Shown piece by piece: positions 37,951 to 41,406 of a stretch of DNA of 64,000 bases (the stretch's first letter is position 1; each line of letters begins with the position of its first letter). This stretch comes from an uncultured Bradyrhizobium sp. (GTDB taxonomy: Bacteria > Pseudomonadota > Alphaproteobacteria > Rhizobiales > Xanthobacteraceae). A program made the position numbers and the translations under genes. The DNA is taken from the NCBI RefSeq assembly GCF_947648125.1, contig NZ_CANSMR010000006.1, positions 1 to 64,000 of the forward strand, given 5' to 3'. The notes beneath the pieces are model-generated. The model worked only from the letters and a program-made list of their open reading frames with translations. It was not told the origin of the DNA and did no database searches.

Positions 37951-39351
37951 ATGTCCAACGCCAAGCTGCAGCCCGTGCTCGACCGTATCGACGCCGATTT
38001 CGACAACAGTCTCGAGCGGCTGTTCACGCTGCTGCGGATCAAGTCGATCTCGGCCGATCCGGCCTTTGCCGATGACTGCAAGGCGGCCGCCGATCACCTT
38101 GCCAAGGATATCGCAACCCTCGGCTTCAAGACCGAGGTGCGTCCGACCGCCGGCCATCCGGCCGTGGTCGGCAAGCTGAACGGCGCGACCGACGGGCGTC
38201 CGCATGTGCTGTTCTACGGCCACTATGACGTGCAACCGGTCGATCCGCTGAATCTCTGGCACCGTCCGCCGTTCGAGCCCGTGGTGACCGACCATGCCGA
38301 CGGGCGCAAGATCATCGTCGCGCGCGGGGCCGAGGACGACAAGGGACAGTTGATGACCTTCGTCGAGGCGTGCCGCGCCTGGAAAAATGTGACGGGATCG
38401 TTGCCGATCGACATCACCATCGTCATCGAAGGCGAGGAGGAGATTGGCTCGAAGAATTTCGTGCCGTTCCTCGAGGCGAACAAGGCCGAGCTCAAGGCCG
38501 ACTTCGCACTGGTCTGCGATACCAGCATGTGGGATCCGAACACGCCCGCGATCACGACCTCGCTGCGCGGCCTGGTCTATGACGAGGTCAAGATCAAGGC
38601 CGCCAATCGCGACCTGCATTCCGGTGTGTTCGGCGGCGGCGCGCAGAATCCGATCCGCGTGCTGACGCGGATTCTTGGCGGCCTGCATGACGAGAACGGG
38701 CACATCACCATCCCCGGTTTCTACGACGGCGTGAAGGATCTGCCGCCGGACATCCTGGCGCAGTGGAAGCAGCTCAATCTGACGGCGGACAGCTTCCTCA
38801 AGCCGATCGGCCTCTCGGTGCCGGCCGGCGAGAAGGATCGGCTCCTGATCGAGCAGGTCTCCTCGCGCCCGACCTGCGACATCAACGGCATCGTCGGCGG
38901 CTATACCGGCGAGGGCTCGAAGACGGTGATCCCGGCCGAGGCGTCGGCCAAGGTCTCGTTCCGCCTGGTCGAAGGACAGGACCCCGAGAAGATCCGCCAG
39001 GCGTTCCGCGATTACGTGACGGCGCGCGTGCCGGCGGATTGCAAGGCCGAATTCATCGATCATTCCTCTGCGCCGGCGATCGCGCTCGACTGGAACATGA
39101 AGCCCCTGGCGGCCGCCCGCCGCGCGCTGACCGACGAATGGGGCAAGGAGGCGCTGCTGGTCGGCTCCGGCGCCTCGATCCCGATCGTCGCCGACTTCAA
39201 GCGCGCGCTCGGCCTCGACAGCGTGCTGGTCGGCTTCGGGCTCGACGACGACAACATCCATTCGCCGAACGAGAAGTACGACCTCAAAAGCTACCACAAG
39301 GGCATCCGCTCCTGGGCGCGGATTCTCGCCGCCTTCGCCGACGCCAAATAA
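37951..39351 (+). CDS. M20 family metallopeptidase (dipeptidase type)
   Basis: 466 residues. Metal-site motifs: LFYGHYDVQP, RGAEDDKGQLM and EGEEEIGS (Asp/Glu ligands and catalytic Glu), plus a final His region near YHKGIRSW. The central dimerisation domain (SGVFGGGAQNPIRVLTRILG) is present. The motifs match the dipeptidase/carnosinase-like branch, a cytoplasmic enzyme hydrolysing small peptides. A strong terminator follows 15 bp after the stop. Confidence 0.88.
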   Translation: MSNAKLQPVLDRIDADFDNSLERLFTLLRIKSISADPAFADDCKAAADHLAKDIATLGFKTEVRPTAGHPAVVGKLNGATDGRPHVLFYGHYDVQPVDPLNLWHRPPFEPVVTDHADGRKIIVARGAEDDKGQLMTFVEACRAWKNVTGSLPIDITIVIEGEEEIGSKNFVPFLEANKAELKADFALVCDTSMWDPNTPAITTSLRGLVYDEVKIKAANRDLHSGVFGGGAQNPIRVLTRILGGLHDENGHITIPGFYDGVKDLPPDILAQWKQLNLTADSFLKPIGLSVPAGEKDRLLIEQVSSRPTCDINGIVGGYTGEGSKTVIPAEASAKVSFRLVEGQDPEKIRQAFRDYVTARVPADCKAEFIDHSSAPAIALDWNMKPLAAARRALTDEWGKEALLVGSGASIPIVADFKRALGLDSVLVGFGLDDDNIHSPNEKYDLKSYHKGIRSWARILAAFADAK

Positions 39352-39366
39352 CATGAGACGCTCCAA

Positions 39367-39404
39367 ACGCAAAAACGCCGCCCGGAATTGGGCGGCGTTT
39401 GTTT
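39367..39404 (+). terminator. Terminator of the M20 gene (copy 1)
   Basis: Stem CGCCGCCC-GGAATT-GGGCGGCG with T-runs on the right (GTTTGTTTT) and A-runs on the left, so it can work in both directions. Bases 39367-39400 are repeated without change at 40312-40345, on the other side of the RAYT block. Confidence 0.85.
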
Positions 39405-39409
39405 TGCGC

Positions 39410-39440
39410 GTAGGATGGGTAGAGCGCAGCGAAACCCATC
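39410..39440 (+). repeat. REP palindrome 1 (left of RAYT)
   Basis: GTAGGATGGGTAGAGCG... to ...ACCCATC: the GATGGGT/ACCCATC arms pair. It lies 21 bp before the RAYT start. Opposite orientation to REP 2 and REP 4. Confidence 0.8.
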
Positions 39441-39461
39441 ACTTCTTGATCACGATCAGTC

Positions 39462-39998
39462 ATGGTCACTTATCGTCGTAACTTCATTGCTGGAGGCAGC
39501 TTCTTCTTCACGGTCAACTTGGAGGACCGGCGGCGGCGATTGCTGACCGAGTACGTCGATCGCCTACGCGCCGCTTTTCGCGAAACGCGCGAACGGCATC
39601 CGTTCACGACCGAGGCGATCGTCGTTCTGCCCGACCACCTCCATGCGGTCTGGAGCTTGCCGGAAGGTGACACCGACTATGCGACGCGGTGGCGGCAAAT
39701 AAAGTCGGCGTTCTCGCGAAGCCTTCCGGCCGGCGAGATCGTTTCGACCAGCCGCGCTGCCAAACGAGAGCGCGGGATTTGGCAGCGCCGCTACTGGGAG
39801 CACACGATCCGGAACGAGGATGATTTCGCTCGTCACATTGACTACGTGCACATCAATCCCCTCAAGCACGGTTTGGTAAAACGAGTGAAGGATTGGCCGT
39901 ATTCGTCGTTCCATCGCATGGTCAACCTTGGCCTGTACCCTGAGGATTGGGCTGGTGACGGGGAGAGGGTGGATGGGGTATTCGGCGAGCGGTCTTGA
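39462..39998 (+). mobile_element. REP-associated tyrosine transposase (RAYT)
   Basis: An intact 178-residue single-strand transposase of the IS200/IS605-like Y1 HUH family. The HUH motif is PDHLHAVW (His59, His61); the likely catalytic Tyr is Tyr128 in DYVHINPLKHGLV, with conserved WQRRYWEHTIRNEDD before it. It would nick and rejoin REP hairpins as DNA. REP palindromes flank it in inverted orientation at 39410 and 40011, and a deleted copy follows at 40102-40291. The element lies between two convergent chromosomal genes, a typical site for such domesticated transposases. Confidence 0.92.
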
Positions 39999-40010
39999 TG
40001 CGGGTCCATG

Positions 40011-40042
40011 ATGGGTTTCGCTGCGCTCTACCCATCCTACGT
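40011..40042 (-). repeat. REP palindrome 2 (right of RAYT)
   Basis: GATGGGTTTCGCTGCGCTCT... to ...ACCCATCCTACG, the inverse of REP 1. It is part of a 59-bp stretch (39984-40042) repeated exactly at 40233-40291, which includes the last codons of the transposase gene. Confidence 0.82.
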
Positions 40043-40043
40043 T

Positions 40044-40098
40044 TTCGCCGGGTCCACGAACGCAAAAGCGCGGCCCAGGGCGCGCGGCGTGTTGATTT
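40044..40098. repeat. Degenerate copy of the flanking terminator
   Basis: CGCCGGGTCCACGAACGCAAAA then GCGCGGCCC...CGCGCGGCGTGTTGATTT aligns with 40298-40350 (CGCCGGGTCCCCGCACGCAAAA, then the terminator stem). The stem is corrupted, so it is probably no longer functional. It shows that REP and terminator sequence were duplicated together. Confidence 0.6.
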
Positions 40099-40101
40099 GG
40101 A

Positions 40102-40133
40102 CGTAGGATGGGTAGAGCGAAGCGAAACCCATC
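40102..40133 (+). repeat. REP palindrome 3
   Basis: CGTAGGATGGGTAGAGCGAA... to ...ACCCATC, same orientation as REP 1 with one base change (GAAGCG for GCAGCG). Confidence 0.8.
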
Positions 40134-40259
40134 GCTTCTTCGCTGCGATCGGCATGGTGACCCATCGTCGCGCTTTCATTGAATCCATCCCGCGGACTGG
40201 GCTGGCGATCGAACGAAATTGGATGGAATGTCCGGCGAGCGGTCTTGATGCGGGTCCAT

Positions 40260-40291
40260 GATGGGTTTCGCTGCGCTCTACCCATCCTACG
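40260..40291 (-). repeat. REP palindrome 4
   Basis: Identical to REP 2, and part of the 59-bp exact duplicate 40233-40291. Confidence 0.82.
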
Positions 40292-40311
40292 GTTTTCCGC
40301 CGGGTCCCCGC

Positions 40312-40350
40312 ACGCAAAAACGCCGCCCGGAATTGGGCGGCGTTTTGATT
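40312..40350 (-). terminator. Terminator of the class II aldolase gene (copy 2)
   Basis: An exact repeat of the terminator at 39367-39400. Read leftward from the aldolase gene, whose stop is at 40402, the stem GCCGCCC/GGGCGGC is followed by TTTTTGCG, so it can end that transcript. Confidence 0.8.
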
Positions 40351-40401: not shown

Positions 40402-41181
40402 TCAATCACGGTAGCCGGGATTGACGCGGTCGAGCTTGCGCAGCAGCGGCGGCCAGACCAGCTGGGTCGAGCGCAGCTCGGCGCGATCGGGGTTCGACAG
40501 CAGCTCGGTGTTCTTGTCGATCGCGTGCTGGTCGACCGGATAGACGCTCCCGCCGAGCGCGCGGGTCGCCACCTGCATCGAGCAGGCGCGCTCCAGATGG
40601 TACATCCGCTCGAAGGCGGATGCGACCGAGCGGCCGACCGTCAGCGTGCCGTGATTGCGCAGCAGCATGTGGTTTTTGGTGCCGAGATCGCGCTGCAGGC
40701 GCGGGCGCTCGTCATGATCGAGCGCGATGCCTTCATAGTCGTGATAGGCGAGGTCGTGGGTAACGAGCTGCGCGGTCTGGTTCAGCGGCAGCAATCCATC
40801 GGGGCCGCTCGACACCGCGGTGCCGTCGACCGTGTGCAGATGGAGCACGCAGCCGGCGTCCTCGCGCACCTCGTGGATCGCCGAATGGATGGTGAAGCCG
40901 GCCGGGTTGATGCTGTAGTCGCTCTTCGAGAGCTGGTTGCCGTCGAGGTCGACCTTGACCAGGCTCGATGCGGTGATCTCGTCGAACATCAACCCGTACG
41001 GATTGATCAGGAAGTGATGCTCGGGTCCCGGCACGCGCGCTGAGATGTGGGTGTCGACCAGATCGTCCCAGCCATAGAGCGCGACCAGCCGGTAGCAGGC
41101 AGCCAGATTGATCCGCTGCTCCCATTCCGCCGCACTGATATCCGACGGCACTTCCTTCAGGCGCGCTTCCGCTGGCGACAT
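40402..41181 (-). CDS. Class II aldolase/adducin family protein
   Basis: 259 residues from ATG 41181, preferred because GGAG lies nine bases upstream; an ATG 15 bp earlier has none. Metal-ligand motifs of the family are present: LHLHTVDGTAV and LLRNHGTLTVG. The fold covers fuculose-phosphate-type aldolases, sugar epimerases and decarboxylases, so the substrate is open. It is cytoplasmic, soluble and alone on its transcript. Confidence 0.82.
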   Translation of the reverse strand: MSPAEARLKEVPSDISAAEWEQRINLAACYRLVALYGWDDLVDTHISARVPGPEHHFLINPYGLMFDEITASSLVKVDLDGNQLSKSDYSINPAGFTIHSAIHEVREDAGCVLHLHTVDGTAVSSGPDGLLPLNQTAQLVTHDLAYHDYEGIALDHDERPRLQRDLGTKNHMLLRNHGTLTVGRSVASAFERMYHLERACSMQVATRALGGSVYPVDQHAIDKNTELLSNPDRAELRSTQLVWPPLLRKLDRVNPGYRD

Positions 41182-41406
41182 GGCCGATTGCTCCATTGAT
41201 GACTGTTACTTGACGCGAGCCTAGCGTTGCGGCCCGACCTCAGCAAGGCAGCGTAACGGCGTGACAGACATGCCGGCATGCGGCCCACGATCCGAATGGC
41301 GACGGTCAGTGGGCAACCGCAGGATGGATATTCCAAGGCCGCGATCGGCGAGAGCATTTTCGGTTCTGATTGATGCGAACCGGCGTCTACTTCGTTCGAA
41401 AACGCC

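Follow-up and report, generated by a model that had tools for sequence, protein, structure and literature searches.

MITEs and other internally deleted derivatives of IS200/IS605 elements are recognized by the ends that they keep and the transposase core that is gone. In the literature on REPs, a RAYT (TnpAREP) gene flanked by REPs is termed a REPtron (PMC3733652; PMC6006769), while the REPIN is defined as a REP doublet (PMC3116915). The clusters of REPINs that lie beside RAYTs in P. fluorescens SBW25, among them tandem REPIN clusters that include flanking sequence, are described in the same paper, where Bertels and Rainey name, as a possible origin of REPINs, the palindromes that flanked an ancestral IS200-like element (PMC3116915). 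A description of coreless REP-bounded RAYT copies was not found in searches of the open-access literature on REPINs and RAYTs. RAYT copies that are bounded by REPs and still hold measurable remnants of coding sequence are intermediates of the type required by the idea of descent from IS200 palindromes.

The window analysed here is a stretch of 64,000 nucleotides from an uncultured Bradyrhizobium sp. (genome G000). Its RAYT resembles a REPtron in being a TnpAREP-type gene between GTAG REPs of inverted orientation, but differs in that a second REP-bounded unit composed of RAYT ends only, hereafter the short unit, is located with it inside a duplicated hairpin termed T. The short unit is REPIN-like in that two inverted REPs surround a spacer and can fold as one hairpin, whereas its spacer is made of 126 bases of RAYT coding remnants and it is present in a single copy. 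It also shares with the MITEs of the IS200/IS605 family the possession of ends without a transposase core, yet it bears no sign of transposition and its flank is common to its neighbour. As in SBW25, REP pairs adjoin a RAYT and are repeated together with flanking DNA; the difference is that REP doublets are described for that strain, while the repeat in the window holds remnants of the RAYT gene (PMC3116915).

The two REP-bounded units

Two REP-bounded units in the same orientation are situated between convergent genes for an M20 peptidase (37951-39351, + strand) and a class II aldolase (40402-41196, - strand). The first contains an intact RAYT of 178 aa (39462-39998, + strand), which matches the NCBIfam model NF047646 (REP_Tyr_transpos) with 203.3 bits against a cutoff of 80 (E 1.5e-60) and Pfam Y1_Tnp at E 1.8e-05, and which aligns over 2-167 with the solved E. 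coli TnpAREP chain 4er8_A (E 3.9e-52), HLH standing against HMH and DYVHINP against DYIYINP. The HLH segment presumably carries the HUH catalytic residues, and the DYVHINP segment the catalytic tyrosine. The REP upstream of the gene (39409-39441, + strand) is a 33-bp arm that is 100% complementary to its inverted partner, the REP that closes the unit (40009-40041, - strand), and 39462-39998 joins the transposase sequence to the inverted flanking REPs by which a RAYT/TnpAREP is defined. Four REPs were recognized in the window; they are not due to chance, because none was obtained in any of 100 shuffles.

The short unit measures 190 bp from REP to REP (40102-40291), reads MVTHRRAFIESI, aligns to both ends of the RAYT and is devoid of about 440 bp of the RAYT coding core. 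It is composed, in order, of an opening REP (40102-40133, + strand; 97% complementary to 40260-40291), a leader and a start codon with the first 29 RAYT coding bases (40134-40182, + strand; ATG at 40154), the last 68 coding bases with the stop TGA (40246-40248) followed by the 3' leader (40181-40258, + strand), and a closing REP (40259-40291, - strand; 97% complementary over 32 bp). Identity reaches 90% between 40092-40140 and 39399-39447 and 84% between 40189-40295 and 39939-40045. When the REPs were left out, the inside of the unit scored 18 against the RAYT 5' end and 39 against the 3' end, the best of 1000 shuffles being 15 and 16, respectively. The longest exact stretch between the two units comprises 59 bp (39983-40041 versus 40233-40291) and spans a REP and the conserved coding tail. 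The deletion joins the first 29 coding bases to the last 68 at ATTG|AATC, where the shared sequence amounts to at most a base or two, and the retained 5' and 3' coding frames, read from the sequence, disagree. Folding of the unit as single-stranded DNA gave a single strong hairpin built on the REP arms (z -8.0).

Judged by its sequence, the short unit is a RAYT copy from which the core is gone and in which the REPs, the leader, the start and the 3' end are kept. A sequence-only reading of this stretch had proposed just this: an intact RAYT between REP palindromes and an adjoining copy that keeps the REP, leader, start, 3' end and closing REP without the core, with 59 bp identical between them. 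That description is correct, and the ends of the deletion can be mapped. The same reading also credited the copy with potential mobility, for which no backing was obtained. Besides the neighbouring RAYT, the genome contains the inside of the short unit once, with all 27 candidates scored, and no copy was seen among the three best candidates scored in each of 264 other genomes of the genus, a search that did not pick up the unit of G139 described below and may miss distant or short relatives. Other matches at E 1e-4 or better were the RAYT 3' ends at the same site (G121, G139, G174, G175 and G233) and one in G226, which was taken as chance since it covers 27 bases in seemingly thiolase-like coding sequence.

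The two inverted, hairpin-forming REPs of 40102-40291, with their 97% complementary arms, are those of a REPIN, while the dispersed multi-copy population of REPINs is lacking, with one copy here and none seen among the three best candidates of each of the 264 other genomes. The 20 other REP pairs read in the genome have spacers of 15-23 nt against 126 in the short unit, which is ruled out as an ordinary REPIN by spacer length and copy number; the spacers of the ordinary REPINs were compared with the RAYT ends by eye only. In the manner of a MITE, the short unit has parental ends without a transposase, the parent not being the present neighbour. Movement as a unit left no trace: the flank is common to the neighbour, and no other copy was seen in the genome or among the three best candidates scored in each of the 264 others.

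Age and descent of the short unit

Descent was compared over the 128 non-REP columns that are kept by the short unit, which fills 22% of the tree columns. The short unit agrees with the neighbouring RAYT in 91/128 columns (71%), and with the RAYTs of other species at the same site in 93/128 (G121), 96/128 (G139), 96/127 (G174) and 98/127 (G175); G233 gave 79/128 and five others lower values. The neighbouring RAYT itself agrees with that of G121 in 112/128. A tree in which the short unit is the sister of its neighbour was 16.0 log units worse than the best and was rejected (p-AU 0.0026), while a tree grouping it with G000 and G121 was not rejected (p-AU 0.186). The best tree joins it to G175 and G174 with weak support (66/58). 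The proposal that a derivative is now forming beside its source is contradicted by these comparisons.

Distances alone overstate the age of the short unit, because a functionless copy gathers changes faster than a gene, a problem from which the shared changes are free. After polarisation by the majority of nine other RAYTs from the window site, nine changes were found common to G000 and G121 and absent from the short unit, two were common to the short unit and G000 alone, two to the short unit and G121 alone, 14 to all three, and 12 were confined to the short unit. It appears to stand not far outside the G000/G121 lineage, because 14 changes are common to the three. The right flank of the short unit (40292-40311, + strand) adjoins the closing REP, and G121 (Bradyrhizobium sp. 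C9) has at the same place an exact match of 69 bp to the short unit and this flank (40233-40301), by which the 59-bp identity was ruled out as a sign of youth. Neither adjacency nor an extended stretch of identity is proof of recent birth, and the comparison shows that the short unit can be dated against related species.

The affinities change along its length. In the leader and 5' piece (40134-40182), 33/49 columns equal the neighbour and 36/49 equal G139. Within 40181-40232, 41/52 columns equal G175 and as many equal G174, versus 31/52 for the neighbour. As for the lineage-diagnostic columns, the leader and 5' piece have four in the G175/G174 state, three in the G000/G121 state and one in neither; 40181-40232 has five, one and one; and the last 27 bases (40233-40259) have none in the G175/G174 state and four in the G000/G121 state. 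The right flank is likewise of the G000/G121 kind. The short unit thus reads as a mixture between two RAYT lineages, albeit in small numbers of columns.

The hairpin T and the site in related genomes

An exact 34-bp direct repeat, T (ACGCAAAAACGCCGCCCGGAATTGGGCGGCGTTT), stands on either side of the pair of units, at 39367-39400 after the peptidase gene and at 40312-40345 before the aldolase gene (34/34 bp identical; neither copy is assigned to a strand). A third, badly decayed copy lies between the units at about 40060-40098. The joint between the units (40042-40098, + strand) consists of the shared right flank (GTTTTCGCCGGGTCC) and this decayed copy, and includes one arm of the direct repeat D4 (40042-40076 versus 40294-40328, 86%). 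Common to both units beyond the closing REP are GTTTTC-GCCGGGTCC and the start of T. The flanking T pair, the decayed third copy and the sequence shared outside the closing REPs had been overlooked in the sequence-only reading. The 26-base core of T occurs at two places only in the 8.57-Mb genome, with up to two mismatches allowed, which rules out a common genomic hairpin. Lying between convergent genes, T looks like a terminator; the left copy passed a terminator scan on the - strand, the right copy did not, and the four sites found in the stretch were not far above the 1.5 found in shuffles.

An aldolase search of 265 genomes of the genus gave 32 close matches (E <= 1e-165, the window included), and the site was read in all of them. 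A RAYT is present in six (G000, G121, G139, G174, G175 and G233); 17 hold only a single T, in 109-128 bp; and nine have no RAYT but other insertions, some of them REP-like pairs, with one T in seven and two T in two. Empty sites, for which a search had been proposed in the sequence-only reading, do exist in 17 of the 32 genomes, but these lack the RAYT and the short unit alike. In G121, G175 and G174 the arrangement is T-RAYT-T without the short unit, and in G149 and G192, the two insertion-bearing genomes with two T copies, these surround a leftover left REP. The T variants, compared by eye, agree within G175 and within G174. Fourteen more distant genomes were also read at the site, an unfair sample since five had been chosen for a nearby RAYT match; five have a RAYT, eight do not and one (G072) is cut by a contig end. 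The five more distant RAYT carriers (G081, G159, G053, G170 and G028), as well as G139 and G233, hold T on the right only, and relative to these the left T of the window is extra.

Fourfold differences between G000 and G121 amount to 13/86 in the RAYT and 23/194 in the peptidase, and those between G174 and G175 to 9/56 (last 357 bases of the RAYT) and 35/224; between G000 and G175 they are 35/75 and 32/227. These sequence comparisons suggest two RAYT lineages at the site, each keeping pace with its hosts, the two pairs being far too distant from each other. Such a pattern fits differential loss from an array of two RAYTs, and is equally what a single old interspecies exchange would produce. 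An apparent small indel divides the RAYT of G174 between two reading frames, and this gene may be in the course of being lost.

G139 may provide a second case at this site, since its RAYT is preceded by a unit of 121 bp from REP to REP (L079). The 3' part of this unit matches the RAYT 3' end weakly (34 bases, 79%, E 0.002), and a resemblance to the RAYT extends to the closing REP and the right flank. Judged by eye, a T copy that stood between this unit and the RAYT may have been deleted. In nine relatives the site has gained other inverted-repeat units, such as those with CCCGGATGGAGCG arms and the CCCGTCATCCTGAGG units (L074, L072, L073, L080, L078, L081, L085, L082 and L205), in every case between the peptidase gene and the right-hand T.

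With a probability of about 0.7, the pair is the remnant of an ancient local array in which RAYT units bounded by REPs lay between T copies, downstream of the M20 peptidase gene, generated by local tandem duplication with later loss of a core. In this model, a RAYT unit would have been doubled in tandem along with T and the flank to its right, unequal exchange between copies of T being the simplest route, and tandem duplication is favoured over a REP-to-REP landing because the repeated block comprises unit, flank and T. The two RAYTs would then have diverged, and the second, being redundant, would have lost most of its coding sequence by internal deletion and decayed, whereas the REPs, the leader and the 3' end stayed; the duplication may have preceded the deletion. 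Slippage in the hairpin loop during replication would spare the REP arms, because the single-stranded unit folds upon them. Unequal exchange between T copies may have made and unmade RAYT units at this site, which would account for one unit or none in close relatives. The array model also requires a subsequent conversion or exchange close to the closing REP, because the 3' coding piece is G175/G174-like while the last 27 bases and the right flank are G000/G121-like. Directly observed are the ends and the outside flank common to both units, the repeats of T, the divergence of the short unit from the neighbouring RAYT, and relatives with one unit or an empty site; exchange between T copies as the cause, and the order of duplication and deletion, are inferred. 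Against the array model stand the weak position in the tree with G175 and G174, the grouping with G000 and G121 that the data allow, the 14 changes common to the short unit, G000 and G121, the badly decayed middle T, and the left T, which is extra relative to G139, G233 and the more distant carriers. Target duplication upon insertion of the RAYT was considered as the source of two T copies; the agreement of the T variants within G175 and within G174 points to it, while the similar junction in both RAYT lineages and the carriers elsewhere with one T weigh the other way.

In the interpretation of the sequence-only reading, the short unit is a MITE-like element caught at birth, a recent internal deletion in a fresh copy of the neighbouring RAYT. 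The same REPs, ends and start, the 59 identical bases and the strict adjacency are what such an event would leave, but an identity of 71% to the neighbour outside the REPs, the rejection of the sister tree (p-AU 0.0026), the longer identical tract (69 bp) with another species and the nine G000/G121 changes that the short unit does not have make it highly improbable. The mixed affinities could alternatively point to the remnant of a RAYT of the G175/G174 kind, acquired from a related strain by recombination rather than by duplication of a resident gene. The best tree (66/58) and the 41/52 matching columns in the 3' coding piece are in its favour; the support of that tree is weak, however, and the last 27 bases and the right flank side with G000/G121, and we consider this origin quite unlikely.

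It is also unlikely that the short unit is a REP-bounded, non-autonomous element that was moved by the RAYT to its place beside it. The strong hairpin of the single-stranded unit (z -8.0) would suit such movement, and the purD-xseA units of another RAYT, discussed below, have mostly unrelated flanks. DNA beyond the closing REP is not expected to travel with a unit that transposes from REP to REP, and yet the homology runs past that REP into T; the unit is represented by one copy in the genome (27/27 candidates scored), with none seen in 264 others (three best each); and the units of the other RAYT have their strong matches in one interval in nine of nine genomes and were found nowhere else in the six that were scored more deeply. 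The feature noticed in the sequence-only reading is thus real, its age was misjudged, its route was probably misjudged as well, and as a decayed duplicate of the array it is probably ordinary. The site provides a locus at which RAYT units can be traced from species to species as they are gained and lost.

Partial RAYT copies elsewhere in the genus

A census of 101 distinct RAYT loci out of 126 given, mostly from this genus, compared each RAYT with its own flanks; most of the distant loci (L148-L202, except L187) and some further RAYT matches lay outside it. Flank matches at E 0.01 or better were found at 14 of the 101 loci, and five were accepted as nearby partial RAYT copies (G000, G139, G085, G095 and G016). 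The remaining nine comprise L233 and L257, which were read, and seven set aside by match length alone (16-30 bases). A looser census with two end probes returned L031, L043 and L139 only and missed those of G139 and G016. The copy of G085 is a 5' end only: at L043 (reverse complement, about 2135-2225), the intact RAYT is followed by a REP, a leader and some 35 bases of coding sequence from a second RAYT, after which unrelated sequence begins.

In G095 (Bradyrhizobium sp. DOA9), a REP-bounded unit about 0.9 kb upstream of the RAYT joins the first 13 coding bases to roughly the last 195 at a shared TACC. A search with this unit led to 12 regions that were read, seven of which are, by eye, RAYT copies with a REP at either end and an internal loss (G262, G248, two in G255, G036, G246 and G230); those of G164, G210, G070, G002 and G078 are more decayed or miss one of the two REPs within the stretch read. 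When the G246 unit was used as the query, nine genomes were found to hold a family whose members measure about 160-180 bp (E 1e-11 or better), two or three best candidates per genome being scored in both searches. Units near the 190 bp looked for in relatives do exist, but they derive from another RAYT and occupy one chromosomal interval. Coreless REP-bounded RAYT copies thus have some support as a recurrent companion of RAYTs in the genus, a wider pattern that is worth following.

The strong matches of the G246 family lie in the purD-xseA interval in all nine genomes. Conserved blocks border them on either side in seven genomes; in G040 and G079, where the contig ends in this region and includes the xseA side only, such blocks are present on the right alone. 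Related intact RAYTs are found in the same interval in G095, G021, G062, G092, G107 and G262. Sixteen units from 11 genomes were measured in it, 14 of them 157-178 bp long and 15 with both REPs recognized; the G141 unit, whose right end reads N, was left out. Among the 120 pairs of these units, the outside flank was common on the left in none and on the right in six (score > 25; shuffled maximum 13). The flanks change near the REP borders, either by local hopping of the units or by gain of DNA beside the REPs. No copy was detected outside the interval in six of the nine genomes (38-40 candidates scored in each), and a family of genome-wide MITEs was not borne out, the strong matches of all nine genomes lying in that interval.

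It could be imagined that RAYT loci of the genus repeatedly shed coreless REP-bounded copies which move over short range under a resident RAYT, as the 16 units of the purD-xseA interval may suggest; these would represent the missing step from RAYT to REPIN, and the unit in the window an old stranded example. We regard this as doubtful. The purD-xseA interval is itself hypervariable, with same-orientation REP-bounded RAYTs and coreless units separated by differing DNA in the 11 genomes (L324, L325, L326, L327, L328, L329, L330, L331, L333, L339 and L282).
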